Part shown: one piece after another, positions 1-26,435 of the stretch | Layout: every line of letters starts with the position of its first letter | How positions within the stretch are numbered: the first letter of the stretch is position 1 | Virus record (IMG/VR): IMGVR_UViG_3300012923_000140 | Span: 1-26,868 of that record | Origin: a virus | Length of the DNA: 26,868 bases | Strand: one strand, 5' to 3' | Notes under the pieces: model-generated | Databases searched by the model: none | The model's input: the letters and a program-made list of their open reading frames with translations, nothing else | What the model was told of the DNA's origin: nothing | Translations under genes and position numbers: made by a program

Positions 1-383
1 CGACGTCGCCGTGTCGTGACGAACGGGACGTGGTGGCAGCGCAGAAAATGATGGAGGACACGAGCGCCGATTCGGTCATCTCCGTTGTCGAGTTCCCGAA
101 GGCGGACACCCTGTTCACGCTCGGCCACGCCAACAGGATGCGGGGCGCCGGCGAGAGGGACACGGTCTACACACCGAACGGGGCGATCTACCTCGTCAAA
201 TGGGACCACCTGATGGAGAGGGGCGACTGGTACGATCCGCACGCCTACGCCTACGTCATGCCGCCGGAGCGCTCGCTCGACATCGACACGCACGCGGACT
301 TCGAGGCGGCCAGGGCGATGCTGGACGATCAGGGGCGGTTCGACCCGGAGGCGACCGTCAAGAAGGTGACGGCACCAGCATGA
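1..383 (+). CDS. CMP-nonulosonate (acylneuraminate/legionaminate) cytidylyltransferase, C-terminal part
   Basis: The reading frame is open to the left edge, so the gene starts outside the window. From position 3 it reads TSPCRDERDVVAAQ, matching the TSPLRxxxD segment that follows the active site of NeuA/LegF/PseF enzymes. The later PNGAIY and PERSLDIDTHADFEAA segments match the family's conserved C-terminal NGAIY and RSxDIDTxxDF motifs. These enzymes activate a nine-carbon nonulosonic acid with CTP to give the CMP-sugar donor. The GTG at position 30 lies inside the conserved motif and is not the real start. The next gene overlaps by ATGA. The following aminotransferase and 2-epimerase support a nonulosonate pathway, more likely legionaminic than sialic. 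Whether the whole enzyme is intact cannot be seen. Confidence 0.82.
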   Translation, partial: TSPCRDERDVVAAQKMMEDTSADSVISVVEFPKADTLFTLGHANRMRGAGERDTVYTPNGAIYLVKWDHLMERGDWYDPHAYAYVMPPERSLDIDTHADFEAARAMLDDQGRFDPEATVKKVTAPA

Positions 384-601
384 GAGACCAAGTCGTTTGC
401 ATAGATGAAGGATTTGCTTGTATCGTCAGCGGGAGATTGTTCGGGCCGTATCGTTACAGGTCTGAGGCTGAGAAGATGCTGTCCGCGCATAGGATCGCAT
501 CGGATATGCTGGCGGACCGATTTGCAATGAAGGAGAGGAAAATTGTTAAGCGTCCAAGCCGTTGTGGACGCAATTTTGTCAGTAACCGGAGGGCCGGCTA
601 G
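380..601 (+). CDS. small hypothetical protein (73 aa)
   Basis: The ATG at 380 overlaps the stop of the cytidylyltransferase (ATGA), and the protein begins MRDQVVCIDEGFAC. An in-frame ATG at 200 lies inside the upstream gene and is unlikely to be used. The protein is 73 residues with a basic C-terminus rich in Lys and Arg and no recognised domain. Its end overlaps the aminotransferase start by 59 bases. The overlap at its front end supports translational coupling. Function is unknown. Confidence 0.6.
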   Translation: MRDQVVCIDEGFACIVSGRLFGPYRYRSEAEKMLSAHRIASDMLADRFAMKERKIVKRPSRCGRNFVSNRRAG

Positions 602-1661
602 CCATCACCGGCCGGTTGTCACCGATGATGATGTTCTCGCGATAGCAGATCAGGCCCGCAGGCTAGATTCCTACCACTACGTCAACCTGCTGCAAGAGCG
701 CCTAAAGGAGCGGATCCAGGTCAAGCACGCAGTCGCCGTGTCGAGCGGCACCGCGGCGCTGGAGTTGGCGCTGCACCTGGTGGGAGTGAAGCGTGGTAGC
801 ACCGTGCTGCTGCCGACGCTATCGTTCGTGGCTGCGGCTAACGCTGTCGTCAGGGCTGGAGCAAAACCCGTTTTCCTGGACTCCAGCAAACATGATTTCG
901 GGATCGATCCTCACCGGTTCGGAGAATATCTGGCGTGCAATGAGCCACCGAAGGCTGTCATTGCGGTTCATTTGCTAGGTCATCCATGCAAGATGTCAAT
1001 CGTTAACGGATTGGCTGAAGCCTATGGCGTTACCGTCATCGAGGACGCAGCTGAGGCTATCGGTTCGTCCGTATCAGTTCACGCCTCCGACCGCTGGAAA
1101 CCATGCGGTTCCTTGGGCGCAGTCTCCGTCCTCAGCTTCAACCTCAACAAGGTAGTGACGTCCGGCGGCGGGGGTGCGCTGCTGACGAACGACGACGATA
1201 TCGGGGCCAGTGCCCACCACCTTGCCACCACCGCCAGGGTCGCGCACCCATGGCTGGTCGAGCACGACGCGGTCGGCTGGAACCACCGCATGCCGATGCT
1301 TTCGGCGGCGCTGTGCAGTGAGCAAGTCAAGCGGTTGGACGGTCTAGTGAAGGAGAAGCGTGGGCTGGCGATGGCATACAAGGCAGCGATCAACGGAATG
1401 AACGGCGTGACGTTCCACGAGGAACCTGCCGGGACGTTCTCGAACTTCTGGATGCCAACGATCATGGTCTTACCCGGGGAACGCGACGCGATGTTGACGG
1501 CGCTGCACGAGAGGGGGGTAATGGCCCGCGCGGTGTTCACGCCGATGCACCGGCTGAAAATGTACCGGGACGACGGCGGGACATTTCCGGTGGCGAACGA
1601 GGTATTCAGCCGGGCGATATGTCTGCCGGCGGGGATCGAGTTGGCGAGGAGGTTTGCATGA
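543..1661 (+). CDS. LegC-like PLP-dependent sugar aminotransferase (DegT/DnrJ/EryC1 family)
   Basis: The protein has 372 residues, a normal length for the DegT/DnrJ/EryC1 fold. These enzymes transfer an amino group to a nucleotide-linked keto-sugar. Visible motifs are AVSSGTAALELAL (cofactor-binding helix start), a GID...YL segment typical of the LegC branch, VIEDAAEAIGS (the aspartate that contacts the pyridine nitrogen), and SFNLNKVVTSGGGG with the PLP lysine at residue 203. SFNxNKxxTxGGGG is characteristic of LegC-type enzymes of legionaminic acid synthesis. The start is TTG at 543, preceded by AGGAGAGG at 531-538; an ATG in this position is absent. It sits between a CMP-nonulosonate synthetase and a UDP-GlcNAc 2-epimerase, which fits the same pathway. 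Exact substrate is inferred. Confidence 0.85.
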   Translation: MLSVQAVVDAILSVTGGPASHHRPVVTDDDVLAIADQARRLDSYHYVNLLQERLKERIQVKHAVAVSSGTAALELALHLVGVKRGSTVLLPTLSFVAAANAVVRAGAKPVFLDSSKHDFGIDPHRFGEYLACNEPPKAVIAVHLLGHPCKMSIVNGLAEAYGVTVIEDAAEAIGSSVSVHASDRWKPCGSLGAVSVLSFNLNKVVTSGGGGALLTNDDDIGASAHHLATTARVAHPWLVEHDAVGWNHRMPMLSAALCSEQVKRLDGLVKEKRGLAMAYKAAINGMNGVTFHEEPAGTFSNFWMPTIMVLPGERDAMLTALHERGVMARAVFTPMHRLKMYRDDGGTFPVANEVFSRAICLPAGIELARRFA

Positions 1662-1822
1662 CATCCTACGAAATCGAGCAGTTGTTCAAGAACCAGTTGG
1701 CGATCATGCTTGATCTTCGGAACAAATACTCATCGGTGCTGAAGAGGTTGGATGATCCGATCAAGGAGACGAAGGAGATGCTAGAAACCCTCAAGACGCA
1801 GCGTGAATTAGGTCGGGACTAG
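1658..1822 (+). CDS. small helical hypothetical protein (54 aa)
   Basis: The ATG at 1658 overlaps the aminotransferase stop (ATGA) and follows a GAGGAGG ribosome-binding site at about 1646-1652. The product, beginning MTSYEIEQLFKNQ, is charged and probably helical throughout, with heptad-like leucine spacing near VLKRLDDPIKET. No family is recognised. The strong ribosome-binding site and tight overlap make it a likely real gene. Confidence 0.6.
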   Translation: MTSYEIEQLFKNQLAIMLDLRNKYSSVLKRLDDPIKETKEMLETLKTQRELGRD

Positions 1823-2071
1823 GTGGACAGGGAGAAGCGTCTCCGCAGGCTCGTCAAGAGCAAGCGCCGAGAGGCAGCGATGAAGGCGTGGGATACTCGG
1901 AGATCGAGGAAATTATGTTCGCCGGCCGATGTTGACGCCGACTCCCGTTCCGTTGCTAGAGTCATCCACGGAGACGAAGCAAAGGAGGACGAACATGGGT
2001 TGGATATCAAGGATCATCCCCAAGTGGCTGCGCTCGCAGCCATCCGAGACGATTCGGCCGGAGATGCTTAA
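1823..2071 (+). CDS. hypothetical protein with KAWDTRR motif
   Basis: A GTG directly follows the upstream stop codon. The 82-residue product is very basic at its N-terminus and carries AAMKAWDTRRS, similar to the AxKAWxTRR motif in many small phage proteins thought to bind nucleic acid. It overlaps the next gene by 77 bases in another frame, and no clear Shine-Dalgarno precedes the GTG. The motif favours a real gene, but the C-terminal half could be fortuitous. Confidence 0.42.
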   Translation: MDREKRLRRLVKSKRREAAMKAWDTRRSRKLCSPADVDADSRSVARVIHGDEAKEDEHGLDIKDHPQVAALAAIRDDSAGDA

Positions 2072-2198
2072 GCCGTACGGGTCGAACCAGCATTTGAACG
2101 CGCCGTCGCAGCCTATGCGAACGTCGCTGCCGATACCGCCGGGACCGATACCGCAGGGCGGCAACGTTGGGTCGACTACTTCGAGGCCGTTGCGATGA
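1995..2198 (+). CDS. proline-rich small hypothetical protein (67 aa)
   Basis: The ATG at 1995 has a strong ribosome-binding site, AAAGGAGG, a few bases upstream; earlier in-frame starts lack one. The product begins MGWISRIIPKWLRSQ, an amphipathic or membrane-associating N-terminal helix, followed by a proline- and serine-rich tail (PIPPGPIPQGG). Its stop overlaps the epimerase start (ATGA), suggesting coupled translation. No family recognised. Confidence 0.55.
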   Translation: MGWISRIIPKWLRSQPSETIRPEMLKPYGSNQHLNAPSQPMRTSLPIPPGPIPQGGNVGSTTSRPLR

Positions 2199-3406
2199 AA
2201 ATTGCTTTGATCTCTGGCAGCCGGTCCGACCGCAACGCGCTCGTCATGGTCGAGAAGGCGCTACGGTCAAATGATCATTCTGTGCGAACGATAGACGTGT
2301 CTTGGCCAGACGAAGAAGAAGACATTCATGGTCCGATAGATAGCGCCGTATCGGCGAGCCTGAACGTGAACGGTATTCTCGACAAAGTAATGGACAGCAT
2401 GAATGGCGGCGAAACCAATCCCTGGTGGCCATGGAAAGGGGATACGCCACTCATCGTCGTTCACGGGGACCGCCACGAAATTCTCGGTGCGGTAGTTGGT
2501 GCCAATATTATGGGATGGCCGATCGCTCACATCGGCGGCGGCGACATCACCGAGGGCAGCCAGGACGACTGCTTCCGCCACGCCATCACCAAGCTGTCGC
2601 ACCTGCACTTCGCGTCGAACCAGGACTCGGCAGACCGGATCGTCCAGATGGGAGAGGAACCCGACCGCGTCCACGTCACTGGGTGCCCAGGGATCGACAT
2701 GGTGATGGCGACGCCGACGCTCAATCGTGAGGATACTTTCATCGCTGTTGGCCTGGGGATAAGGCAACAGATGCCTACCGACTATGGTACCGACGATAGC
2801 ATTGCCGTCACCACGCCAGCTAGGAGCCTCGTGGTGCTGTTTCACCCCAACACCCTGGATGACACCGCCTCCGAGCTAGAGGCTCTCAGCGTCGCTCTAT
2901 CGCGCAGGACGGAGGCATTGGTGCTGCTGGGGCCAAACGCGGACGCCGGGAACGACCTCATCCGACGGGAGTGGCAGCGCCTCGCCCAGAACCGCGCCGA
3001 CACCGTCTACCACGACAACGTCGAGCCGCAGGTGTTCTACTCGCTGCTGAAGTGGTGCGACGTGCTGATCGGGAACTCGTCGGCGGGGTTCTACGAGGCA
3101 CCGTGCTTCGGTACCAAAGTGCTGGATATCGGGGATCGCCAGCACGGCAGGCTCCCACACACCAACATGTTTGGTAGCTATTCGGGTGATCACCGTGAGA
3201 TCACAGCATGTCTTGATCAAGTCATAACGGCGAAGTCTGAACCATGCGTGAATCCCTACAGCGACGGCCATGCATCCGAGCGCATCGCCAAGGTGATATG
3301 CGGGATCAATGATCCGCGCACGCTGCTGCGAAAGAAGTTCAACGAGCATCGCGAGTGGTGTACTGCCGTGGTGAAGCGCAGACATTTGCCGAATATGGAG
3401 TTCTGA
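2195..3406 (+). CDS. UDP-N-acetylglucosamine 2-epimerase, hydrolysing (NeuC/LegG-like)
   Basis: The 403-residue protein shows the two-lobe GT-B epimerase pattern. Landmarks are SGSRSDRNAL at the N-terminus, VHGDRHEILGAVV, AHIGGGDITEGSQDD, FRHAITKLSHLHF, VTGCPGIDMV, LFHPNTLD and IGNSSAGFYEAPCFGTK followed by DIGDRQHGR. These correspond to the conserved UDP- and sugar-binding segments of NeuC/LegG enzymes, which release UDP while inverting C2 to make an N-acetylmannosamine-type precursor. The RHAITKLSHLHF signature fits the hydrolysing branch rather than WecB. With a LegC-like aminotransferase two genes away, a LegG role is more likely than NeuC, though the substrate cannot be read from sequence. 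A roughly 50-residue stretch around residues 180-210 looks like a loop expansion. Confidence 0.87.
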   Translation: MKIALISGSRSDRNALVMVEKALRSNDHSVRTIDVSWPDEEEDIHGPIDSAVSASLNVNGILDKVMDSMNGGETNPWWPWKGDTPLIVVHGDRHEILGAVVGANIMGWPIAHIGGGDITEGSQDDCFRHAITKLSHLHFASNQDSADRIVQMGEEPDRVHVTGCPGIDMVMATPTLNREDTFIAVGLGIRQQMPTDYGTDDSIAVTTPARSLVVLFHPNTLDDTASELEALSVALSRRTEALVLLGPNADAGNDLIRREWQRLAQNRADTVYHDNVEPQVFYSLLKWCDVLIGNSSAGFYEAPCFGTKVLDIGDRQHGRLPHTNMFGSYSGDHREITACLDQVITAKSEPCVNPYSDGHASERIAKVICGINDPRTLLRKKFNEHREWCTAVVKRRHLPNMEF

Positions 3407-3407
3407 C

Positions 3408-3713
3408 ATGGTCATAGCAGCGGCAGCGATCTCCATATTGGCGCAGGGATGGGTAGAACCAGCGCATGCCAAGACGGGTTCCGAACCCGCTGTCACAGTC
3501 CAATATCCGCGCGCACCGTCCCGCGAGGAGATGGACTGGCGTCGCAGGCACCAGGAGATACCTGGCTACGCGCCCCACACCCCAGGCTACGGCCCGTACA
3601 TCGAGGATGGCCACCCGAGATGGCAGGGCACGCGGAACCCGTACTACCGCGAGGAGTACCCGCGCATCGAGTATCCGCGTGTTTATCGTTGCTGGCGCGA
3701 CGGGCCATGCTGA
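3408..3713 (+). CDS. putative secreted small protein, Tyr/Pro/Arg-rich
   Basis: The ATG at 3408 lies one base after the epimerase stop. The first 22 residues (hydrophobic run, then EPAHA-K) resemble a signal peptide with an AHA cleavage site, though the usual N-terminal positive charge is missing. The predicted mature part is rich in Tyr, Pro, Arg and Gly (GYAPHTPGYGPYIEDG, YPRIEYPRVYRC). No domain is recognised. Its stop overlaps the start of the next gene (TGATG). Confidence 0.5.
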   Translation: MVIAAAAISILAQGWVEPAHAKTGSEPAVTVQYPRAPSREEMDWRRRHQEIPGYAPHTPGYGPYIEDGHPRWQGTRNPYYREEYPRIEYPRVYRCWRDGPC

Positions 3714-3925
3714 TGAATACCTTCGTCGAGTTCCTGATCCTGTTCATCGCCGCTGGCGTGGGGTTCATCGCCGGGTTCATTTCTGCGGCGATTGTATTTG
3801 TGCGCGCGATCAGGCAGCGCGATGCCGTGATCGCTACCCACAATCTGCTAACCGAAGACATCCTAAGGAGCATTTATGGAGATCGATTCGAAGACGAGGC
3901 CAACAAGCGTAGAGCTATGGAATGA
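3713..3925 (+). CDS. small single-pass membrane protein (70 aa)
   Basis: The ATG at 3713 overlaps the upstream stop; an ATG two codons earlier at 3707 is an alternative. A long apolar stretch (FLILFIAAGVGFIAGFISAA) at about residues 7-31 predicts one or two closely packed membrane passes, followed by a charged cytoplasmic helix. Small proteins of this shape are common in phages. No homolog is recognised. It overlaps the methyltransferase start by 50 bases. Confidence 0.55.
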   Translation: MNTFVEFLILFIAAGVGFIAGFISAAIVFVRAIRQRDAVIATHNLLTEDILRSIYGDRFEDEANKRRAME

Positions 3926-4526
3926 TCTCCACCGACAGGTCCAATGGGGGACGTGCCCGGAGCCGGCAGTGGCCCGCTGGGCGATGCGTCGGTGGGGCGG
4001 AAGGGATAAGGACGCCAAGGGCAGCGTCCACCTTCTCGATGTCGGCTGCGGCGTGGGGGCGATGGCGTTCTGGCTGGCGAACAACGGGTTTCTGGTCGAC
4101 GCTGTCGACGCTTCGGATGAGGCGATCAAACGGGCCCAGCATCTATATGGCTACGTTTACCCGCATTCTCTGCGCTTCTGGCCGATGAATATTACCAATC
4201 TGCCGCCGTCGTACGTCATTCACGCCGCAGCCCAGTTCGATGGGATCGTCGACGTCTGCTGCCTCCAACACGTCGATGACCTCGATGCGGCATTGGAGCA
4301 AATCAAGTTGATGCTCAGGTCCGGCGGTCAACTACTCTCGATAATGGCCTGCGCCGACCACAGCCCCGTGATGCGCGAGGAATTGAAGGGGGCGACATTC
4401 CACAGGTTGACGCAGGGCGAAGTCCATCGTCACTTCATGCGGTTCTCGGCCGTCAAGCTGGAATCCACGACCCATACCGACAACGGCGCGAACATCTCGC
4501 ACTGGATCATCGAGGCGACGAAATGA
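3876..4526 (+). CDS. class I SAM-dependent methyltransferase
   Basis: The 216-residue protein has motif I LLDVGCGVG at residues 53-61 with the downstream acidic DAVDAS at 75-80, the S-adenosylmethionine pocket of Rossmann-fold methyltransferases. FDGIVDVCCLQHVDDL is the motif IV region, and LRSGGQLLSI the post-motif strand of small-molecule methyltransferases of the UbiE/Methyltransf_11 type. There is no NPPY, so it is probably not an adenine-N6 DNA methylase. An AAGGAG ribosome-binding site precedes the ATG. Its place after sugar genes suggests methylation of a glycan or nucleotide sugar, but this is inference. Confidence 0.8.
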   Translation: MEIDSKTRPTSVELWNDLHRQVQWGTCPEPAVARWAMRRWGGRDKDAKGSVHLLDVGCGVGAMAFWLANNGFLVDAVDASDEAIKRAQHLYGYVYPHSLRFWPMNITNLPPSYVIHAAAQFDGIVDVCCLQHVDDLDAALEQIKLMLRSGGQLLSIMACADHSPVMREELKGATFHRLTQGEVHRHFMRFSAVKLESTTHTDNGANISHWIIEATK

Positions 4527-4557
4527 TCGCCCTCCGCGCCGCCGCCGATATTGATAC

Positions 4558-4734
4558 ATGAGAGCGATCGAAAGACGAGCCTTGAAAGTTAAATGCCCCT
4601 ATTGTTCGGCCAAGTCTGGGGAGAACTGCCGCCCCTTCTATTTTGGCGGAACGTGGGGAAAGGGTTCTCCCAAGCTTCACAAGCAACGACTTGATGTCGT
4701 GCGAAAACGCGAATCAAGGAAGGCTAACAAATGA
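4558..4734 (+). CDS. phage zinc-finger small protein (58 aa)
   Basis: This short frame reads MRAIERRALKVKCPYCSAKS and continues to a Lys/Arg-rich end. The pattern CPYCxAxxGxxCRP, followed by an HKQRLDVV segment, matches the C-x2-C-x7-C...H-x2-R zinc fingers found in many phage and actinobacterial small proteins. Its stop overlaps the next start (ATGA). About 30 bases of non-coding DNA separate it from the methyltransferase. It probably binds nucleic acid or protein. Confidence 0.62.
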   Translation: MRAIERRALKVKCPYCSAKSGENCRPFYFGGTWGKGSPKLHKQRLDVVRKRESRKANK

Positions 4735-5072
4735 GCGAGAAATGCTTTCGTTGCGGAAAGCTGCTTCCTGAGAGCTATACGATGACGATTGGCGGCCCTC
4801 AAGGATCGACAGCCGATGTCATCGGCTGGCACTGGATTAACGCCGCCCCTCATGCAGCCTCTGGTGGGACCATGGTTCCTGTATGCAACAAATGCGATCC
4901 GCCTCCGGTATTCATCCCCCGCGCCCAGCACGAAGCGCTGATGATGGCGGCGAAGGCGCTCAAGGCTTGGGACGAAGGCGGAATTGATTGGAATGTGTGG
5001 AATGAACAGGCTCACGCGGCCATCGCCGCCCTGCGCGCCGCCAGCATTGATCCATCGGAGGACAAGCCATGA
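4731..5072 (+). CDS. hypothetical protein with two CxxC zinc-binding pairs (113 aa)
   Basis: AAGGAAGG lies just upstream of the ATG. CFRCGK near residue 5 and CNKCDP near residue 52 form two CxxC pairs, likely binding one zinc ion. The C-terminal half (AQHEALMMAAKALKAWDEGG) is helical and resembles generic phage small proteins. Its stop overlaps the next start. Family not recognised. Confidence 0.62.
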   Translation: MSEKCFRCGKLLPESYTMTIGGPQGSTADVIGWHWINAAPHAASGGTMVPVCNKCDPPPVFIPRAQHEALMMAAKALKAWDEGGIDWNVWNEQAHAAIAALRAASIDPSEDKP

Positions 5073-5194
5073 CAACCGCTTCGGCTATCGCGTTTCCGTT
5101 TCTCGTGCTCTGCACTTTGCTGGGCATTGCCGCTATCATTTGGGCTTCAGGCTCCGCTTCGCGCCCTCACCCGCCATCGAAGGACAAGACATGA
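5069..5194 (+). CDS. small membrane protein (41 aa)
   Basis: A GGAGG site precedes the ATG, which overlaps the upstream stop. The product has one apolar helix (FPFLVLCTLLGIAAIIWA) and a short Pro/Lys-rich tail. It is of a size and shape seen in phage holin-like or spanin-like proteins, but no lysis genes are nearby and the function is unknown. Its stop overlaps the next start. Confidence 0.55.
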   Translation: MTTASAIAFPFLVLCTLLGIAAIIWASGSASRPHPPSKDKT

Positions 5195-5589
5195 GCGATA
5201 AACCAAGGTCAATATTAGAACGCGATTGGCCGTATCCTTTAAGTGCGGAGGAACTGAACGATTGCGATGCTGACAAGCGCATCGCCGAACTCGAAGCCGA
5301 GGTGCGCCGGCTTCAGAACAATGAGGTAAACGACTGCGATCTTCTCGGAATGCATGAGCGACGCATCGCCGAACTCGAAGCAGAGCGCGACCAGCTATTG
5401 TCCGATCTCAGCGACGTTGGAGCGGTGAAAAACGAAGTCATCAATGATCGTGATGCGGCATTAAGGGAGCGCGATGCTATCCGGGCGAAGACGATCGAGG
5501 ATGTGGCCAAATATTGGGAAGCACAGGACTGCTGGGACATCGCCAAAGAAATCCAGGCTCTCGCTCAGACGGATGAGGAAAAGACATGA
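5191..5589 (+). CDS. coiled-coil hypothetical protein (132 aa)
   Basis: The ATG at 5191 overlaps the preceding stop and has AAGGA upstream; a longer frame begins inside the previous gene. The product is almost entirely charged helix. The segment RIAELEAE appears twice, 28 residues apart, each preceded by an NDCD motif, which suggests an internal duplication. Coiled-coil oligomerisation is likely. No family is recognised. Confidence 0.6.
   Translation: MSDKPRSILERDWPYPLSAEELNDCDADKRIAELEAEVRRLQNNEVNDCDLLGMHERRIAELEAERDQLLSDLSDVGAVKNEVINDRDAALRERDAIRAKTIEDVAKYWEAQDCWDIAKEIQALAQTDEEKT
5278..5381 (+). repeat. 20-bp direct repeat within coiled-coil gene
   Basis: CGCATCGCCGAACTCGAAGC occurs at 5278-5297 and again at 5362-5381, identical and 84 bases apart, so in the same codon register. 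It encodes RIAELEA. The identity at DNA level indicates a recent tandem duplication rather than convergent coiled-coil sequence. Confidence 0.8.
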
Positions 5590-5801
5590 GCATCATTGAA
5601 CTGGATTGGCGAGCTAGTACCTATGTACGCAACGTAGGTTGCCACATTGCGGCAGTTGATGATGGATTCCTGATCGTCAGCATTGAATCACCGCGTTTTT
5701 GCTTTCACGCGGAAACACAAGAGACAGCGACCCTAAAGGCCGCGAGAGCGATAGAATGGTTCGAGAAGTCGAAGCTTGGCATCCCACATCAATGGGACTA
5801 G
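5586..5801 (+). CDS. small hypothetical protein (71 aa)
   Basis: The ATG overlaps the upstream stop (ATGA) with GAGGA ahead of it. The product, beginning MSIIELDWRASTYVRN, has alternating strands (GFLIVSIESPRFCFHAE) then a helix (ATLKAARAIEWFE), a small alpha-beta layout. A 33-base AT-rich gap with little else follows it. No family recognised. Confidence 0.58.
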   Translation: MSIIELDWRASTYVRNVGCHIAAVDDGFLIVSIESPRFCFHAETQETATLKAARAIEWFEKSKLGIPHQWD

Positions 5802-5834
5802 TCAAAACCTTAGTGAAAATAGTAAATTAGTCCA

Positions 5835-6218
5835 ATGCCAGCAGGAGCTAAGCCAGGAGAACGACGCGGCGGACGTGCCAAAGGAGCGCCAAACAAGCGC
5901 ACCATAGGTGAGGCATATTTCAAGGATCAGGCCAAGGTCCAGCCAACCCAGGAAGCCTTTGACAGCCTCGACCAAAAGCGCAAAGTCATCATGTCACTCA
6001 TCAGCTTGGCTGCCGAGGAGCAGGGCAAGCGCGCCCGCGGCGAGAAATGGGACGCGAAGTGGTTCAGGGAGACGCTGGAGGCGGCAGACAGGGCGTTGAA
6101 CGGTTTGCTGCCCTACGAGCACCGCCGCCTGGCGACGCTGGAGCCTGCGATGGAGACGGTGATCAAGCCGGACGGCAGCGTGCATGTCACGATTTCGCGA
6201 ACAGATTCGGAGCTTTAG
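5835..6218 (+). CDS. possible terminase small subunit or DNA-binding protein (127 aa)
   Basis: The N-terminus GERRGGRAKGAPNKRTIGEAY is a basic AT-hook-like segment followed by a helix, as seen at the start of several phage small terminases and proteins encoded just upstream of TerL. The rest is helical (RALNGLLPYEHRRLATLEPAM), and the C-terminus reads as a beta strand. Two genes stand between it and TerL or overlap it, a usual place for TerS. The Shine-Dalgarno is weak. No catalytic motif is expected. Either this or the next gene is the better TerS candidate. Confidence 0.45.
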   Translation: MPAGAKPGERRGGRAKGAPNKRTIGEAYFKDQAKVQPTQEAFDSLDQKRKVIMSLISLAAEEQGKRARGEKWDAKWFRETLEAADRALNGLLPYEHRRLATLEPAMETVIKPDGSVHVTISRTDSEL

Positions 6219-6674
6219 ATGGCCATCAAGTTCGAGACATCAGACGGGAAAGTCCACACGGTTGGCGGAGGTGATCCAAAGGTGAAGGCTTCAACTGGTG
6301 GGATATTGGCGAAATTCTCTGGCATAGGGCGCGCTGAACCTCCTGATGTGGGGCGAACCAAGCGGTTGGAGGCCCGGGTTGAAGCGCTGGAACAACTCGT
6401 GGCGGCTCAATCCAAGCAGGTCACGGCTCTTGCGGCAACGCTCAAGTCGATGCTTGAATCGATGCTTGTGAACAATGCCGATGCCGTTACTGTTCACAAG
6501 CCTGTTCATGCTGATGTTCACGCCACTGTTCACACAAAATCTGTCGACAAGGATGTGAACAGCGCATCGAACCGGAAGAAATATCGACGCGAATGGACTC
6601 GTGACAGCCGTGCCGCCAAGAAGCTCGGGCTGACCGTCGCCGAGTATCGGTCCAGGAATGAGCGTCCAGTTTAA
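6219..6674 (+). CDS. putative DNA-binding coiled-coil protein upstream of TerL (151 aa)
   Basis: The start follows the previous stop directly. The protein has a flexible N-terminus, a coiled coil at about residues 47-90 (RLEARVEALEQLVAAQ), a V-H-x-x periodic segment (VHKPVHADVHATVHTK) around residues 91-108, and a basic C-terminal helix, NRKKYRREWTRDSRAAKKLG, that looks DNA-binding. It overlaps the TerL start by 17 bases. A role as TerS or a packaging accessory is plausible. The V-H periodic segment is encoded by the 12-bp iterons described separately, so its sequence may be constrained by DNA rather than protein function. Confidence 0.5.
   Translation: MAIKFETSDGKVHTVGGGDPKVKASTGGILAKFSGIGRAEPPDVGRTKRLEARVEALEQLVAAQSKQVTALAATLKSMLESMLVNNADAVTVHKPVHADVHATVHTKSVDKDVNSASNRKKYRREWTRDSRAAKKLGLTVAEYRSRNERPV
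6467..6561 (+). repeat. 12-bp iteron array with flanking inverted copies, possible packaging site or operator
   Basis: TGTTCAC/T begins at 6491, 6503, 6515 and 6527, exactly 12 bases apart. Inverted copies, TGTGAACA, lie on both sides at 6467-6474 and 6554-6561. The array is inside the coding region just ahead of the terminase large subunit. Direct repeats in or beside the small terminase gene are typical of pac/cos recognition sites, but an operator is also possible. Confidence 0.6.
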
Positions 6675-8016
6675 TCTCACAGAGGCCCAGAAACGCGGCA
6701 ACAAGCTCCTCGCCGGTCCGCAGCGCCATACTGCCCTGGTCGGCGGTTCTCGGTCCGGAAAGACGTTCCTCCTCGTTCGCGCCATCGTCACCAGGGCTCT
6801 ATGCGCCGACTATTCCCGCCATGTGATCTTGAGGTTTCGCGAGAACGCCGTTTGGCGCTCGATCGGGATGGACACATTTCCCTCCGTCATGCGCAAGTGC
6901 TACCCAGGGATGCCATACGTCGTGAGGCGTGCTGACGGGTTCTTCCTGATGCCGAACAAGTCAGAGATTTGGCTGGGCGGGTTGGATGATCAGGATAGGA
7001 CAGAACGTATTTTGGGTCAGGAGTTCGCGACCCTCTATGAAAACGAATGCAGCCAGATCACCTATCGCTCGCACCTGATGGCGAGCACCCGCCTCGCGCA
7101 ATCCGTGATGAACCGTGTCACGGGAAAGATGCTTAAACAGCGCGCCTACTACGATCTCAACCCGACGGGGAAAGGACACTGGACGAACCGCCTGTTCGGG
7201 CAGTTGCGAGACCCGGTGTCGCTCCAGCCGCTTGCCAACCCTAGCGACTACGCCCGCATGTTCATGAACCCGCGGGACAACTCGGCGAACCTGTCAAAGG
7301 AGTACATCGAGAGCCTAGCAGCGTTGCCAGAGCGCCAGCGCCGGCGGTTCTACGAGGGCGTCTACGTCGACGAGTCCGAGGGCGCGCTCTGGACCTACGA
7401 CACGATTGAGCGGTGCCGTGCACCTCACCCCGGCGATGATGCCCTCCAGCGCGTTGTGGTGGCCGTGGATGCGTCCGGGGCGTCCGGGCGGGAAGATCTA
7501 CAGGCAGACGAGATCGGCATCGTGGTGGCCGCGCTGGGGCAGGACGGGCATGGCTACGTTCTGGCCGATAGGTCATGCCGGGAGTCGCCCGCGGTCTGGG
7601 GCAAGATCGTCGCCAAGGCGGTCGAGGACTTCGACGCCGACTGCGTCGTGGCCGAGAGGAACTTCGGCGGCGACATGGTGCGGTTCGTGATCAAAACGGC
7701 TGCCCCTAAGGTGCTGGTCAAGATGGTGACCGCCAGCCGCGGCAAGGTGGTGCGTGCCGAGCCGATATCGGCGCTCTACGGGGATGAGAAGACGCCGTCC
7801 CGGGTTCACCACGTCGAGCGGTTCCCGATGCTCGAGGAACAGCTGTGCGGGTTCACGACAATGGGCTACCTGGGCGAGGAGTCACCCGACCGCGCCGACG
7901 CTCTGGTGTGGGCGCTATCTGAGTTGATGCTAAAGGGGCAGACGCCTATCATGGTCGGGCCGGTCATCTCATCCAGGCAGGTCGTACCGCACGGCACCCA
8001 CGAGGGTTACCAATGA
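6658..8016 (+). CDS. terminase large subunit (TerL)
   Basis: This 452-residue ATPase-nuclease packages phage DNA. The ATPase part shows Walker A GGSRSGKT at residues 29-36, Walker B-type ATLYENE at 124-130 with the catalytic glutamate, and the coupling motif YDLNPTG at 165-171. The RNase H-like nuclease part shows VVAVDAS with D271, VVAERNFGG with E333 and DRADALVWAL with D411/D414, the expected acidic metal-binding triad. Length and motif order are normal. It overlaps the upstream gene by 17 bases and the next by four. The start at 6658 has only a weak Shine-Dalgarno, in keeping with translational coupling. Confidence 0.96.
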   Translation: MSVQFNLTEAQKRGNKLLAGPQRHTALVGGSRSGKTFLLVRAIVTRALCADYSRHVILRFRENAVWRSIGMDTFPSVMRKCYPGMPYVVRRADGFFLMPNKSEIWLGGLDDQDRTERILGQEFATLYENECSQITYRSHLMASTRLAQSVMNRVTGKMLKQRAYYDLNPTGKGHWTNRLFGQLRDPVSLQPLANPSDYARMFMNPRDNSANLSKEYIESLAALPERQRRRFYEGVYVDESEGALWTYDTIERCRAPHPGDDALQRVVVAVDASGASGREDLQADEIGIVVAALGQDGHGYVLADRSCRESPAVWGKIVAKAVEDFDADCVVAERNFGGDMVRFVIKTAAPKVLVKMVTASRGKVVRAEPISALYGDEKTPSRVHHVERFPMLEEQLCGFTTMGYLGEESPDRADALVWALSELMLKGQTPIMVGPVISSRQVVPHGTHEGYQ

Positions 8017-8207
8017 ACGACACTTTGGATTCTTTGGCGCGTTTAGTTTCAATCAAGCCAATGCAGATATGCAAGAATTGTCGCTTCAGTCATCGTCTTT
8101 CTGGTGAGGTGATGAGTTGTCGCCGAAGATCGCCATCCGAAAGCGGCTTAGACAAATGGCCGCAAGTCACTTGGGACGAATGGTGCGGGGAGTACGAGCC
8201 GCGATGA
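8013..8207 (+). CDS. cysteine-rich small phage protein (64 aa)
   Basis: The ATG overlaps the TerL stop. CKNCRFSH, a later single cysteine before RRRSP, and DEWCGEYEP make a four-cysteine pattern likely to bind zinc or an iron-sulfur cluster. The C-terminal W-C-G-E-Y is a recurring end in small phage proteins. It ends in an ATGA overlap with the next gene. Function unknown. Confidence 0.62.
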   Translation: MNDTLDSLARLVSIKPMQICKNCRFSHRLSGEVMSCRRRSPSESGLDKWPQVTWDEWCGEYEPR

Positions 8208-8413
8208 ACGTAGAAGCCCCTAAAGAGATTGTGCAGGAGATCAAGGCCCAGGTCCCTGGTTGCGCCACGCTTTTCCTGAAGAACGGCGACATCATCATGA
8301 TCCAGATAGCCGTCAAGGAAGTCCGCGAGGTGGTCGGGCAGAAGGACGCCAACGGCAAGCAGGTCTACAACTTTGAGTGGGGAGTCGGCACCCAGGTGAT
8401 CGAGAGGGACTGA
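8204..8413 (+). CDS. small hypothetical protein (69 aa)
   Basis: The ATG at 8204 overlaps the stop of the upstream gene; earlier in-frame starts lie inside it. The product is helix then beta strands (ATLFLKNGDIIMIQIAVKEV), an ordinary small alpha-beta protein. No family is recognised. One base separates its stop from the next ATG. Confidence 0.58.
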   Translation: MNVEAPKEIVQEIKAQVPGCATLFLKNGDIIMIQIAVKEVREVVGQKDANGKQVYNFEWGVGTQVIERD

Positions 8414-8414
8414 G

Positions 8415-8594
8415 ATGGGTGATCTGAACCAAGCATTTCTCAATCTTCGATCAGCCGTCGATTTTGAATGTGAACGCGGTGGTGAAGACAGGAAAGTCGA
8501 GATCAACCTTAGGGATCTCATCGAGATCATTTCATGGATTGAGGATATCAAAGACAATGATCATGTTGATGCAGCCGGTTTTTTTAGGAGTTAG
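8415..8594 (+). CDS. small acidic hypothetical protein (59 aa)
   Basis: This 59-residue frame, beginning MGDLNQAFLNLRSAVDFE, starts one base after the previous stop and ends two bases before the portal start. It is acidic and helical. Its tail includes the portal's ribosome-binding site, TAGGAG. It fills the gap between its neighbours exactly, which supports it being real. Function unknown. Confidence 0.55.
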   Translation: MGDLNQAFLNLRSAVDFECERGGEDRKVEINLRDLIEIISWIEDIKDNDHVDAAGFFRS

Positions 8595-8596
8595 CG

Positions 8597-10450
8597 ATGG
8601 CAAGGACACCACGGCAGACGCAGACGGGCGGCACGGCGAACAGCCCGGTTGACCCGGTATCCAGCGGACCCACCCGCGGCGCGTCCGACCTTGCCGGCAC
8701 TCCCAACACACCGACCATCGATCCGCGCGCCGTTACGACGGCAGGGCAGGTGCTCAGCCCGCCCGGCCCGCCCATCTCGCCCAGCGACAACATGTCGTGG
8801 GGACCCATTCCGGTCCTGACCGACGGGATGACGTTCTACGAGCTCGGCCAGACGGGCCTGCGCCAGTTCAGCGGCTGGGTGAGGGAGGAGTTCCTCCAGA
8901 CGCTCATCGGCCGCCAGGGCGCGCAGAAGTTCCGCGAGATGCGCGACAACGATGCGCAGGTCGGCGGAATGCTGTTCGCCATCGAGGCGACGATGCGGAA
9001 GGTGGAGTGGCGCGTCGATCCCGCTGAGGAGGGTGGCGGCAAGGAATACTCCGACTTCATCGAGTCATGCATGAACGACATGTCCAGCTCGTGGACCGAG
9101 ACCGTCAGCGACCACCTGTCGTTCCTGACCTACGGGTTCGCGTGGTCGGAGTTGGTCTACAAGAAGCGCCTGGGGCGCAAGCCTGGGATGGACCCGCGAC
9201 GGCCCGGACAAGAACTACCGGCGAGCGAGTACGACGACGGGAAGGTCGGGTGGCGGCGCATGCCGGGCCGCTCGCAAGATACAATAATAAAGTGGTACTT
9301 TGACATTAACGGCCAACCCAAGGGCGTCACCCAGCAGCCATGGGTGGGGCCGCTCATCGACATGCCGATCGACAAAGCGATCCTGCACCGGCCGACGCAC
9401 TACAAGGGGAACCCTGAAGGCCGTTCGATCCTGCGAAATAGCTACGTCCCGTATTACTACAAGAAGCGTCTGCAGGAGCAGGAGGCGATCCTGTTCGAGC
9501 GGCTCGGCGGCGTGCCGGTGATCTACATCCCGGGGCAGATCCTGCAGCTCGCGTCGACGGGCGATGCGAACGCGCTGGCGCAAGTGAATATGTACAAGCG
9601 CATCGCGGTGAACCTGCGCACCGACGAGCAGATGGGGCTGGTGCTGCCGTCCGACACCTACGAGGGGACGAACGGCCCGACGAGCGTCAAGCAGTACGAG
9701 TTCCAGCTAGTGGCGCCGCAGATGCGCGCGGCATCGATCAACCTCGACCAGACCATCACCCGCTATAGCACGTCGATGCTGACTTCAGTGCTGGCGGATT
9801 TCCTGACGCTCGGGCACGAGGCGCGCGGGACTCAGTCGCTCGCCGTGACCAAGGTCGACATGTTCATGCAAGCCATCGAGGGCTACCTCAACTCGATGGC
9901 CCAGGTCTACAATAAGTACGCCGTCACGAGATTGATGGACTTCAACGCGATGGACTTGGACATGCAGCCGAAGATCAAGCCGGACCTGGCGCAGCGGGTC
10001 GACCTCGACGTGCTGTCGAACTACGTCCTGCGGATGGCACAGGCCGGCATGCCGCTGTTCCCGGACGAGGAAGTGCAGACCTACCTCAAGGACGCCGCCG
10101 GCCTGCCGGACATCGACGATTCCCGTGCCATGCAGGCGGCGGGGCTGACGGACGATCAGCTCGACATGAAGGACGAGCAGAGCGAGGTGCAACTCGACCA
10201 GCTGAAGAACCCGCCGCAGCCCGCAAGTGGTTCCGGCGCGAAGCCGGGAGGGGCGAAGCCGCCCGCCAACGACAAGCAACAGAAACGCGCCAACCTTGAG
10301 ACGATGCTAAAGGGCGCGATCGCGCAGCGCATGGTGAGGCACGCCGGGCCGAAGTTCGGCGTTAGGACCGGACACGTCCACAAGAGCAACCACAAGCAGC
10401 CGTCGGTGCGGAGGTTGACGCGGATGCTGCGGGAGGTTCAATCTGGTTGA
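8597..10450 (+). CDS. portal protein (DUF935 / Mu gp29-like)
   Basis: The 617-residue protein follows TerL after three small genes, the normal place for a portal. Family hallmarks are FREMRDNDAQVGGMLFAIE, MRKVEWRVDP, LSFLTYGFAWSELVYK and HYKGNPEGRSILRNSYVP, the core of DUF935-type portals through which DNA enters the head. The first 70 residues are a Pro/Gly/Thr-rich flexible leader, and the C-terminus (from about residue 540) is a Lys/Pro linker ending in a basic segment. TAGGAG with normal spacing marks the ATG. The family is assigned from motifs seen by eye. Confidence 0.9.
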   Translation: MARTPRQTQTGGTANSPVDPVSSGPTRGASDLAGTPNTPTIDPRAVTTAGQVLSPPGPPISPSDNMSWGPIPVLTDGMTFYELGQTGLRQFSGWVREEFLQTLIGRQGAQKFREMRDNDAQVGGMLFAIEATMRKVEWRVDPAEEGGGKEYSDFIESCMNDMSSSWTETVSDHLSFLTYGFAWSELVYKKRLGRKPGMDPRRPGQELPASEYDDGKVGWRRMPGRSQDTIIKWYFDINGQPKGVTQQPWVGPLIDMPIDKAILHRPTHYKGNPEGRSILRNSYVPYYYKKRLQEQEAILFERLGGVPVIYIPGQILQLASTGDANALAQVNMYKRIAVNLRTDEQMGLVLPSDTYEGTNGPTSVKQYEFQLVAPQMRAASINLDQTITRYSTSMLTSVLADFLTLGHEARGTQSLAVTKVDMFMQAIEGYLNSMAQVYNKYAVTRLMDFNAMDLDMQPKIKPDLAQRVDLDVLSNYVLRMAQAGMPLFPDEEVQTYLKDAAGLPDIDDSRAMQAAGLTDDQLDMKDEQSEVQLDQLKNPPQPASGSGAKPGGAKPPANDKQQKRANLETMLKGAIAQRMVRHAGPKFGVRTGHVHKSNHKQPSVRRLTRMLREVQSG

Positions 10451-10527: not shown

Positions 10528-12972
10528 ATGAGACCTCTTCGCATCGCTCTTGGTGATTTGAGTTACTTCAATGCTGACAATGTTGGCAATTTATACGTCC
10601 CGCTGAACCTCGGCTATCTCGCGTCTTACGTGAAGGCTAAGTTTGGCAGGGACGTGGACATGCGGCTGTTCAAGGACCCGCACGCAATGCTGGAGCATGT
10701 GAAAGATGAGCGACCAGACCTCGTCGGACTGTCAGCCTACTACTGGCAAGAGGAACTCGACAAACTGTTCGTCCGCAAAGTCAGGGAGATCGACGCCGGG
10801 TTTCGTCCGTACATCGTCATTGGTGGGCCATCAGTCGACAGCGATGTGCTGGAGCAGAGATCGTACCTGGACCGTCACCGTGGAGTGGACAAGCTGGTAG
10901 TCAACGAGGGCGAGGATGGCCTTGCCGCGGTCGTGGGGACGCTGCTGGGAGGTTCTGATGCTGAGGTGGCCATAACCCACCCCGAGCGCGTCGGGCTCTC
11001 CACGGACCTCGCCAGCGTTCCCTCGCCGTACCTGGACGGGACCCTGGACGAGTTCCTCGACGGTCCGTTCCAGCCGATGTTGCAGACGTCGCGGTTGTGT
11101 CCTTATACGTGTCTGGCGGGCGACACGCCCATCAACACGATCTTCGGCGATATTTCGATCCGGGAACTTGCCGAGAAGTATGGCGATGCCGGCATCCCAG
11201 TCTACACGTTCAATTTGGAGACGCGGGATGCGTTCATCGCCGATTCAGTCATGATCAGGAAATATGGCGAGAACCAGCATCTCGTTCGCGTTCATTTCGA
11301 CGACGGGACGCACATAGACTGCACTCCCGATCATAAGTTCCTCCAGATATCGCGCGGCTGTCAATGGGAATGCGAGGCAAGCAGTCTTCCCGCTGGCTCA
11401 GCTATTAGGGCGATGAGGGTCGAGGTCAATCCGCATCTTCAGCGTGCATATGTGACTTGGGCGCGGCGCGACAGGCGATTGCGGTCCAGGATGATCAAGG
11501 AATATGAAATGGGGCGGCGGCTCGCCAGTTCCGAGCACGTTCACCATGTTGACCGCAACACGCTGAACGATGCTCCTGAGAATCTTGTGCATTACGCCTC
11601 TGCCGCGGATCATCTTGATCAGCATCCAGAGATTGCAGAGCGTATGCGAACCAACAATCCTACCAAGGGCGGGATGAGCCAGGAATGGCTAGACAATTTG
11701 GCTGCCGCCAACCGCGGGAAAGTGCGATCTCATGAATCCAGGCTTCGTTATCGGAAGTCAAAACTTGGGACCAAGAACCCCAACTTCAAAGACGGTGCAT
11801 CCAGCATCGACAGAAAGTCGCGGATCGCGGAGATCAACCACCGAGTGGTAAGCGTGGATCGGCTGGCAGAAAAGGGCGACGTTTATTGTCTCACAGTGCC
11901 AGCGACCGGATGGTTCTTTGCAAACAATGTTTTGGTCAAGAATTGCTCATTCTGCGTGTCCGGCAAAAGCCGGGGCAAGCTGCGCGTATTCCCGATGGAG
12001 CAGGTCAATGCCGAGATTGAGTTCATCGCCAAACGGTTCGCCGACCGGCCAGACCACATTCTCTATATCGTCGACGAGAACTTCGGCATATTGGGCCGCG
12101 ATGTCGATGTGGCCAAGTCCATCCGCAGAGCTATGGATTACGGTTACCCCAAGCGGGTCTTCTACTACAACGACAAGCGTTTCACTCAGACGAGCCGCGA
12201 CGTCCAGGAAGTGCTAGGCAACGCGTGCCACCACGGCGTCTGCCTGTCGCTCCAGAGCGAGAACCCGGAGACGCTGAAAGCCATCCGCCGGCGCAACCTG
12301 ACCGACGACGACGTCCGCTCTGCTATCGCGTGGGCGCACGGGCTCGGGTTGATGGTCAGCACCGAGTTGATATTCGGTCTTCCGTGCGAGACGAGGGCTA
12401 GTTTCCTGGCGCTGCTCGACAAGTGCGCGCGGCTCGGGTTCGACAAGGTGCAGTGCTACAACCTTATCGTGTTCGATGGCATAGAGATGAACCGGCAGGC
12501 ATACCGGGACGAGCACAAGCTGGTGACGAAGCGTCGGCCGATCAACGCGCATTCCCTGGTGCTCGACGGCGAGGCGTGTGCCGAGACGGAGGAGGTTGTA
12601 GTCCAATCCAGCAGTATCTCGTTCGACGACTACCGCCTAATACGGGCGATGAACGTGATGTTCCACGCGGTGTTCGTGCTCGGCGTGCATCGGGAGTTTT
12701 TCCGCGGACTGGTGGATTCCGGGCAGTCGTTGACGGCATTCTTCGAGAAGTTTCTAGAACCACTCAAGGATGGGGACTGGACGGCGCAGATGCACCGCCG
12801 ATTCATCGCTGACCTTGAGGATGCGATATGCGATGAACTTGGTGGGCACGTGCTCCACGACGGCCGCGTGGTGAAGATCCAGCCGGTGTTCGCCAGCAAG
12901 CTCGCGCAGGCGACGTGGGTGCCAGAAGTCATAGCCAGGATAGCGCGCCAGAGGGAAGAAATAGCAGCATGA
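10528..12972 (+). CDS. B12-binding-type radical SAM protein interrupted by an intein
   Basis: The 814-residue precursor has a Rossmann-like N-terminal domain resembling B12-binding domains (RPDLVGLSAYY, IVIGGPSVDS), then a radical SAM core. In the precursor the cluster motif is split: C191-P-Y-T precedes the intein (residues 195-472), and C473-S-F-C476 follows. Splicing gives CPYTCSFC, a canonical CxxxCxxC [4Fe-4S] site. Other radical SAM landmarks follow: DENFGIL, SLQSENPETLKAI and ELIFGLPCETRASF. The host extein is about 536 residues. No DxHxxG motif is seen, so cobalamin may bind base-off or not at all. Homologs with this layout sit in surface-sugar clusters, which would fit the upstream sugar genes, but the reaction is unknown. 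Confidence 0.87.
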   Translation: MRPLRIALGDLSYFNADNVGNLYVPLNLGYLASYVKAKFGRDVDMRLFKDPHAMLEHVKDERPDLVGLSAYYWQEELDKLFVRKVREIDAGFRPYIVIGGPSVDSDVLEQRSYLDRHRGVDKLVVNEGEDGLAAVVGTLLGGSDAEVAITHPERVGLSTDLASVPSPYLDGTLDEFLDGPFQPMLQTSRLCPYTCLAGDTPINTIFGDISIRELAEKYGDAGIPVYTFNLETRDAFIADSVMIRKYGENQHLVRVHFDDGTHIDCTPDHKFLQISRGCQWECEASSLPAGSAIRAMRVEVNPHLQRAYVTWARRDRRLRSRMIKEYEMGRRLASSEHVHHVDRNTLNDAPENLVHYASAADHLDQHPEIAERMRTNNPTKGGMSQEWLDNLAAANRGKVRSHESRLRYRKSKLGTKNPNFKDGASSIDRKSRIAEINHRVVSVDRLAEKGDVYCLTVPATGWFFANNVLVKNCSFCVSGKSRGKLRVFPMEQVNAEIEFIAKRFADRPDHILYIVDENFGILGRDVDVAKSIRRAMDYGYPKRVFYYNDKRFTQTSRDVQEVLGNACHHGVCLSLQSENPETLKAIRRRNLTDDDVRSAIAWAHGLGLMVSTELIFGLPCETRASFLALLDKCARLGFDKVQCYNLIVFDGIEMNRQAYRDEHKLVTKRRPINAHSLVLDGEACAETEEVVVQSSSISFDDYRLIRAMNVMFHAVFVLGVHREFFRGLVDSGQSLTAFFEKFLEPLKDGDWTAQMHRRFIADLEDAICDELGGHVLHDGRVVKIQPVFASKLAQATWVPEVIARIARQREEIAA
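11110..11943 (+). mobile_element. intein with HNH homing endonuclease domain (278 aa) inside the radical SAM gene
   Basis: The insert begins with Cys (CLAGDTPINT, block A) and ends in KN before a +1 Cys. Block B DCTPDHKFL contains the usual His, and the C-terminal block reads VYCLTVPATGWFFANNVLVKN-like in register (residues 452-472). The penultimate residue is Lys rather than the usual His. The middle, about residues 336-425, has EHVHHVDRNTLNDAPENL (HNH, His-His and Asn-rich) and a NUMOD3-like GTKNPNF segment. Boundaries follow from the intact CxxxCxxC motif produced on removal. Confidence 0.9.
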
Positions 12973-14921: not shown

Positions 14922-15992
14922 ATGAGAATCATAGTCATCTTACTAGCCCTGTGGTCAGGGTGCGCAACAGCGGCAGAACTGCCACGGCCAAAGCCGGTGC
15001 CACCAGCTAAGCCGGTAGCCGCGCCTACGATTGGCGGCCCGGTAGACGGTCTCGGAAGGGCCGGCATCGCATTATTCAATCAAGGAAAGAATGTGTTTAG
15101 CCGGGTCTTCACACCCGAGACAGGATTGGGGCCACTGTTCAACAACATAGGTTGTGCGACTTGTCACGAGGTGCCCGTAGTAGGCGGATCAGGCGGTTTC
15201 AATGAAGACGACGTTGACGTGGAGCGTCACGCCACTGCCGACGATCAACCGTCCTGTAACGAGTTGACCACGTTCGGTGGTCCTGTTTTCAGGGAGCAAG
15301 CAGTACCGGGCGCAACAGTTCCCTCAATTCCCGGCAACGCAGGTGTGCGTATTGGCCTGCGCTCGACACCTGCCCTGTTTTCATCCGGTTCAATTGATGC
15401 GGTTTCCGAGGAAACCATCATCGACAACGCTAGGCGCAACAATGGCGGGCGCGTCGCGAAGTTACCGAACGGTAAGATCGGAAAATTTGGACGCAAGGCG
15501 ACTGACCCGGATTTGGCTGGTTTCGTGCGTGGAGCATTTGCGACGGAACAGGGTATAGATTCCCCCAGCGAGATCAGCGAGACTGACCTTTTACTGGCCA
15601 CGTTTTTTATCGCCAATCTCGCGCCACCTGACGCGCAGGCAGATGCACAAGGGTCCAAAGTCTTTCACGATATAGGGTGCGCCAGCTGCCACATCCCCAG
15701 CCTTCCGACCGAGAAGGGGAAACATGCGTTCTTGTATTCCGACCTTCTGTTGCACGATATGGGACCCGGCCTAGCTGATCTATGCAAGGGAGTGGCGGCG
15801 ACCAACGAGTTCCGCACCGAACCTTTGATGGGGCTGAGGTTCCGATCCAGGTTCCTCCACGACGGGCGTGCAGAGCGTCTTTCCGCCGCGATCACGAGCC
15901 ACGGAGGTCAGGGTCAAGCGGCTGCAGACAAGTTTGTGCGGGTGAATGATCGGGATCGTAACGCTTTGATGAAATTCCTAAGCGGCCTCTAA
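14922..15992 (+). CDS. periplasmic di-heme c-type cytochrome, DUF1111 (thiol oxidoreductase-like)
   Basis: The 356-residue protein begins with a signal peptide (apolar run then ATAA-E), so it should be exported. It has two CxxCH haem-c sites: C78-C81-H82 in NNIGCATCHEVP and C253-C256-H257 in HDIGCASCHIPS. The DUF1111 frame is clear: FTPETGLGPLFN, GRKATDPDLAGFVRGAF, LLLHDMGPGLAD, FRTEPLMGLRFR and FLHDGRA. Such proteins are bacterial electron carriers or MauG/peroxidase relatives needing host cytochrome c maturation. TAGGAGG precedes the ATG. It is an odd neighbour for head genes and may be an acquired moron gene. It ends 14 bases before a tiny ORF. The role for a phage is unknown. Confidence 0.88.
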   Translation: MRIIVILLALWSGCATAAELPRPKPVPPAKPVAAPTIGGPVDGLGRAGIALFNQGKNVFSRVFTPETGLGPLFNNIGCATCHEVPVVGGSGGFNEDDVDVERHATADDQPSCNELTTFGGPVFREQAVPGATVPSIPGNAGVRIGLRSTPALFSSGSIDAVSEETIIDNARRNNGGRVAKLPNGKIGKFGRKATDPDLAGFVRGAFATEQGIDSPSEISETDLLLATFFIANLAPPDAQADAQGSKVFHDIGCASCHIPSLPTEKGKHAFLYSDLLLHDMGPGLADLCKGVAATNEFRTEPLMGLRFRSRFLHDGRAERLSAAITSHGGQGQAAADKFVRVNDRDRNALMKFLSGL

Positions 15993-18162: not shown

Positions 18163-18486
18163 GTGACCCTCATCAGATTGATGGAAAGTACCCTATACAA
18201 ATCGCCAGGGACTATCATCGTCAGCCGAGACGACGACGGCGTCCATCATTTCTCCAGCTCCGAACGTCCAGACCGCATCATCATCGACATCCATAACCTG
18301 AGCATCGGTTTCGGCTGGATGAACGTAAACAGTATCCAGAAGACGATCACCTTCTCGCTGGACGGGGAGGTTTTGGTGTATCGTCGCATCGGCAAGGACC
18401 CCCACGGGTGGTGGGTCTGCGATCGGGTGCATGATGGCGATCAACTTCACGAAGGCGATAGAACTTCAGGTAGTCCGCAAGCTTAA
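18163..18486 (+). CDS. hypothetical protein (107 aa)
   Basis: The GTG at 18163 has GGAG eight bases upstream, so it is preferred to the ATG at 18181, which has none. The product is beta-rich (GTIIVSRDDDGVHHFSS, FGWMNVNSIQKTITFSLDG). Its end overlaps the fused protease gene by 56 bases. No family recognised. Confidence 0.5.
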   Translation: MTLIRLMESTLYKSPGTIIVSRDDDGVHHFSSSERPDRIIIDIHNLSIGFGWMNVNSIQKTITFSLDGEVLVYRRIGKDPHGWWVCDRVHDGDQLHEGDRTSGSPQA

Positions 18487-26381: not shown

Positions 26382-26408
26382 GGTTGTTCTCCTGTCCTGT
26401 CCACCAAA

Positions 26409-26435
26409 GCCTACGCACAGAATGTTCACGTAGGC
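26409..26435 (+). promoter_or_regulatory. 7-bp hairpin in the HNH-capsid spacer
   Basis: GCCTACG and CGTAGGC pair perfectly around a 13-base loop. It lies in the leader of both the HNH gene (reverse) and capsid gene (forward). Function unknown. Confidence 0.35.

Follow-up and report, generated by a model that had tools for sequence, protein, structure and literature searches.

What use could a virus make of genes for a nonulosonic acid (NulO), a sialic-acid-like sugar? The question is raised by the start of virus record IMGVR_UViG_3300012923_000140, whose positions 1 to 26,868 form the window analyzed here (the whole stretch, 26,868 bases). There, the end of a cytidine monophosphate (CMP)-nonulosonate synthetase gene is followed by genes for a LegC-family aminotransferase and a NeuC/LegG-like hydrolyzing 2-epimerase. 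With slightly better than even confidence, we read this region, from a soil phage, as the downstream portion of a cassette that would provide a CMP-activated, tailored NulO of the legionaminic type, with a virion protein as its likeliest acceptor.

The gene set and its phage setting

The window, a phage fragment, carries on its plus strand genes for a terminase large subunit, a Mu-type portal, head morphogenesis and scaffold. Four loci with aminotransferase relatives emerged from a protein search of viral contigs. One of them, contig L001, overlaps the window and belongs to the same virus (99.98% identity over the 9,912 bases of window 1-9912); it extends 2,808 bases upstream of the window start and holds both the full synthetase gene and a predicted NeuB-type synthase (Table 1). 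An earlier note on this DNA had named the three gene types at the window start and suggested that a synthase (NeuB/LegI) may lie just upstream, and all four are present. It had also described one overlapping run ending at 3,406. Instead, the three genes do not overlap, being separated by gaps of 159 and 533 bases with small open reading frames (ORFs), and a methyltransferase gene further downstream belongs to the cassette as well. Those of the small ORFs between LegC and NeuC that were tested gave no family match in NCBIfam, PHROGs or Pfam. We judge the three enzyme genes to be real because their family scores lie far beyond chance and because they recur in independent assemblies. An assembly chimera was considered and is ruled out by the agreement of these assemblies.

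Comparison of eight records, representing six phage lineages (window/L001, L002, L003/L004, L012, L013 and L093), reveals the order NeuB-NeuA-LegC-NeuC-methyltransferase in all six, with two additional genes between NeuB and NeuA in L012 and L013 (in L012, a weak GNAT match and a polysaccharide deacetylase). The cassette phages form a single clade in the NeuB, LegC and NeuC trees (Shimodaira-Hasegawa-like approximate likelihood ratio test support of 97, 99 and 100/99, respectively), with near-congruent branching. Pairwise ratios of nonsynonymous to synonymous substitution rates for the cassette genes range from 0.08 to 0.50, which indicates purifying selection, saturated comparisons giving no value. 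At positions that hardly vary in bacteria, the phage enzymes mostly retain the same residues. Retention of an almost complete de novo pathway in a phage lineage, through long divergence, implies that it is of steady benefit.

These results bear on the possibility that the cassette is passenger or contaminant bacterial DNA without a phage function, a reading that is largely refuted and that we regard as scarcely probable. The cassette is known from metagenome contigs alone, with no isolate, as such a reading would have it. Against this, contigs from several separate metagenomes hold the cassette together with phage genes, terminase and portal among them, and the single clade in three trees and the purifying selection also speak for a phage gene set. 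A search with the LegC alignment found no close bacterial donor, and the best bacterial identities of the cassette proteins, about 39-47%, identify neither donor nor host. Phage NeuC clusters with some alphaproteobacteria, with which it has a GGD variant in common, a grouping that hints at a gene source and not at the host. A portal search of 385 genomes of one class gave two weak prophage-like matches, which are uninformative on the host, and a promoter and terminator scan returned fewer sites than in shuffles.

Table 1. Predicted cassette genes in the window and on the overlapping contig L001.
Feature	Position	Strand	Support or remark
NeuB-type synthase	L001:1479-2336		~1330 to 470 bases ahead of window base 1; NeuB_NnaB 265 bits vs PseI 156 bits
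Complete CMP-NulO synthetase, 227 aa	L001:2508-3191		TIGR03584 (PseF) 110 bits
CMP-nonulosonate synthetase (NeuA/LegF/PseF-like), C-terminal part	3..383	+	TIGR03584 (PseF) 27 bits for fragment
LegC-family pyridoxal phosphate (PLP) aminotransferase	543..1661	+	TIGR04181 323 bits, PF01041 260 bits
Small overlapping ORFs between LegC and NeuC	1619-1822, 1823-2071, 1929-2198	+	putative, coding status uncertain
Hydrolyzing 2-epimerase (NeuC/LegG-like)	2195..3406	+	TIGR03568 239 bits, PF02350 175 bits
S-adenosylmethionine-dependent methyltransferase, last cassette member	3876..4526	+	PF08241 55 bits

The predicted sugar and its tailoring

An aminotransferase is not required for neuraminic acid, nor does the pseudaminic route use a NeuC-type epimerase, so the presence of both enzymes points to a legionaminic-type sugar. 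Together with a NeuB-like synthase, they make a legionaminic-type product a strong inference from gene content, not a demonstration. The aminotransferase gene begins with a TTG codon with AAGGAGAGG upstream of the start, and its protein retains K203, the PLP lysine, along with further near-invariant residues. The protein reaches 323 bits with the LegC model (below the curated cut-off of 420) versus 207 bits with PseC, and the synthase likewise scores higher with NeuB_NnaB than with PseI (Table 1). The epimerase exceeds the cut-off of its NeuC_NnaA model (235.9 bits), and its nearest solved structures are a hydrolyzing guanosine/uridine diphosphate (GDP/UDP)-diacetylbacillosamine 2-epimerase and human GNE. 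The PDB matches of the synthetase are CMP-N-acetylneuraminic acid synthetases, and its conserved residues are kept. Inspection of the LegC tree places the cassette phages among bacterial LegC proteins from legionaminic-type, LegB-linked clusters; many of the sampled bacteria have the same four genes grouped, and the loci inspected also contain LegB-like genes. Family scores of the enzymes, the trees and the gene neighborhoods in bacteria thus agree on the legionaminic-type pathway that the earlier note had proposed. The opposite case, in which the upstream DNA lacks the synthase and the phylogeny belongs to another pathway, was looked at and failed on both points.

It is unlikely that the enzymes make another diamino sugar, such as pseudaminic acid or an 8-epi or 4-epi isomer, instead of legionaminic acid itself. 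Such a product would be in keeping with family scores short of equivalog cut-offs, with PseF as the top model for the synthetase and with a dehydratase in L093's phage that scores best, though under the cut-off, with PseB (221 bits). The epimerase above its own cut-off, the wide lead of LegC over PseC and of NeuB over PseI, and the nesting of phage LegC with LegB-linked bacterial LegC all argue the other way. The dehydratase (PF02719, 265 bits) directly adjoins the portal gene of L093's phage, the most distant cassette phage (88 kb), and has Leu at the position of the usual catalytic Tyr (YxxxK). Absence of this Tyr is typical of retaining dehydratases, and the Leu would suit the legionaminic route.

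The route that we infer from the identity, order, conservation and selection of these genes, tailoring and timing included, would start from an NDP (nucleoside diphosphate)-4-keto-6-deoxy-N-acetylhexosamine made by a 4,6-dehydratase of the host or encoded elsewhere. LegC would aminate this compound at C4, and the NeuC/LegG-like enzyme would epimerize it at C2 and release the nucleotide. The NeuB-like synthase would then condense the free sugar with phosphoenolpyruvate, and the NeuA/LegF-like enzyme would activate the product with cytidine triphosphate. A ligase of the FemAB type, known from sister phages and presumed here, would probably attach an amino acid at an amino group of the sugar, with probable N-methylation by the methyltransferase, as in flagellar Leg5GluNMe7Ac or Leg5AmNMe7Ac. 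Expression would probably fall late in infection, and transfer to a virion structural protein is the most likely last step.

Two genes suggest the tailoring. A FemAB-type gene lies upstream of NeuB in five lineages, that is, in all whose contig extends there. The modeled protein from a sister phage (predicted local distance difference test score, pLDDT, 87) is nearest to FemX, FemA and the streptothrisamine ligases Sbb17/Sba18 (Z 24-25), with MprF (Z 18) and coenzyme A-dependent transferases (Z 15 or less) ranking lower. The model thus matches the Fem fold of aminoacyl-tRNA-dependent ligases, the donor being putative. A methyltransferase homologue occupies the same position in all six cassette phages. 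Homologues of both genes occur in the bacterial clusters L110 and L162 with NeuB, NeuC and LegB-like genes, and L110 adjoins a flagellin gene. Both Leg5GluNMe7Ac and Leg5AmNMe7Ac occur on bacterial flagella, and the N-methyltransferase PtmH takes part in making Leg5AmNMe7Ac (PMC13317340). From the gene neighborhood, the cassette methyltransferase is a probable NulO N-methyltransferase; the Fem fold and the same neighborhood suggest that the phage sugar is probably both aminoacylated and N-methylated.

Other steps are less fully represented. Searching upstream for a dehydratase, as the earlier note had advised, revealed none in this virus; a complete pathway would thus need a host enzyme or a gene from a part of the genome not seen here. 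In Legionella pneumophila the dehydratase likewise lies outside the legionaminic locus (PMC3766260). No LegH/NeuD-type N-acetyltransferase was found among the ORFs inspected; the FemAB-type protein of five lineages and the weak GNAT match of L012 may act as substitutes. In each of the six cassette phages, the synthase stops 67-70 residues past the EKHF motif, versus a bacterial median of 111. These synthases have no SAF domain, as is also the case for 24 of 75 other viral genes and for one of 79 bacterial ones (cut by a contig end), a contrast to be taken with care, the bacterial set having been picked by similarity. No SAF domain is encoded elsewhere in the cassette-phage records.

The acceptor

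In the window, the cassette lies on the same strand as the terminase gene and directly upstream of it. In L093's phage it lies between head and tail genes, with two MptE-like (PF01973) genes just before it. We take PF01973 to be linked to Maf flagellin transferases. None of the eight records has an integrase. The late-gene position, the lack of an integrase and the MptE-like genes beside one cassette favor virion decoration. If so, the phage would encode its own sialic-acid-like coat, and such a coat and the masking of receptors are candidate benefits, both of them testable.

Alternatively, the same sugar could be placed on the host, with host transferases decorating flagella, capsule or lipopolysaccharide; the changed surface would keep rival phages out or amount to conversion of the host. 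This reading has a substantial chance of being right, if a less than even one. Virion use and host-surface use are inseparable from sequence alone, and the latter ranks close behind in likelihood. Prophage enzymes of Acinetobacter baumannii alter the NulO of the host capsule (PMC12053666; PMC6586298), and the bacterial clusters with FemAB and methyltransferase genes include the one next to flagellin. Host-surface use agrees less well with a cassette at a late-gene position in records without an integrase, with the smaller benefit that altering the surface brings once a lytic cycle is in its late phase and with the MptE-like genes that adjoin one cassette.

Several observations weigh against the reading of a legionaminic-type cassette that serves the virion. 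No NulO transferase was recognized in the window's virus, a point that also favors the use of host transferases. No 4,6-dehydratase (PF01370) was found in seven of the eight records, the window's virus included, these records probably being fragments; indeed, any of the records may be. Most phage family scores lie below equivalog cut-offs. The SAF domain is usual in bacterial NeuB, so the activity of a synthase without it is not assured. In the window's virus the FemAB-type gene itself was not observed, as contig L001 starts just downstream of the expected position; by analogy with the five other lineages, it would be present there too. The fullest version of virion use would have lytic soil phages run a reduced pathway with a synthase lacking SAF and put an aminoacylated, N-methylated legionaminic acid on the virion via MptE/Maf-like transferases, a picture that is rather doubtful as a whole.

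Of the uses proposed, DNA modification has the least support, and it is very unlikely that the sugar is a donor for a modification that protects phage DNA. L012's phage encodes a TET-associated glycosyltransferase (TAGT; PF20691, 154 bits, L012:2596-3630) adjoining a ParB-like gene, and several cassette phages have DNA methylase genes. However, TAGT occurs in one of eight records and away from the cassette, and we know of no DNA modification that uses CMP-NulO, which counts against such a role. A Tet_JBP search, in which the control was silent, carries no weight either way. As a separate observation, a sulfotransferase-family ORF (L183:15566-16402; record G007 35566-36402) occurs in the cassette phage that was the first to show a dehydratase, where it may sulfate a glycan.

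Known relatives and other genes of the window

Single queries at E 1e-5 against 50,697 phage records gave no match for FemAB, one for the epimerase and three for the synthase, namely a Moritella record of 11.7 kb, an uncultured phage of 484 kb and a marine single-cell virus. The gene set, common to related uncultured phages, was found in none of the isolated phages searched. IMG/VR holds at least 183 stretches with a NeuB relative, and a second viral group (L015, L017, L020, L031, L037, L041 and L046) has LegC-, NeuA-, NeuB- and NeuC-like genes together, its NeuB extending only 34 residues past the EKHF motif. NulO genes as such are thus not rare in viral metagenome contigs. We found no paper on a phage gene set for de novo CMP-NulO synthesis, the literature covered being open-licence only and hence weak evidence of absence.

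The closest known system is the bacterial CMP-legionaminic pathway (Campylobacter LegB, LegC, LegH, LegG, LegI and LegF; L. pneumophila ORF 21-25), of which the phages have LegC, LegG/NeuC, LegI/NeuB and LegF/NeuA homologues on one strand. In contrast to that pathway, the cassette is phage-borne, its synthase lacks the SAF domain, a FemAB-type ligase is included, and this virus has no visible dehydratase or LegH/NeuD-type acetyltransferase. As with the tailored legionaminic acids of Clostridium and Campylobacter (PMC13317340), a methyltransferase is encoded with the CMP-legionaminic genes; unlike there, no phage product is known, and the likeness to PtmH is one of gene neighborhood. The A. baumannii prophage enzymes (EpaA/EpaB; O-acetyltransferases) are also phage-encoded and act on nonulosonic acids. 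They alter a host-made sugar, as do the phage NulO enzymes reported so far in the papers found, whereas the present cassette, found in phages with no visible integrase, encodes a nearly complete de novo pathway for the core sugar and its activation. Streptothrisamine, an amino sugar, is the substrate of Sbb17 and Sba18; the fold predicted for the sister-phage FemAB matches theirs, with only 13-17% identity to Fem ligases. The cassette makes four sialic-acid enzymes available in divergent form, the synthase lacking SAF among them, and possibly also a ligase that aminoacylates a sugar.

Other genes of the window were also inspected. A B12-binding radical-SAM gene (10528-12972) is split by an intein with an HNH_3 domain, placed exactly within the CxxxCxxC cluster motif (CPYT / C...N / CSFC; residues 195-472), and the 87% identical gene of L002's phage has no intein. 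This gene sits outside the NulO cassette, unlike the B12-binding radical-SAM gene of the bacterial cluster L162 (L162:11188-12693), which lies between NeuB and NeuC of a legionaminic-type cluster. A di-heme oxidoreductase gene (PF06537, cytochrome c peroxidase-like; 14922-15992) stands amid the head genes and is kept in L002's phage. A 995-aa ORF (18431-21418) combines a phosphoglycerate-mutase-like part, recognized by eye, with a ParB-like part and a C-terminus resembling a head maturation protease. Finally, two probable homing endonuclease genes, GIY-YIG-like (22851-23657) and HNH-like (25773-26429) by eye, lie on the minus strand, opposite to the late genes.

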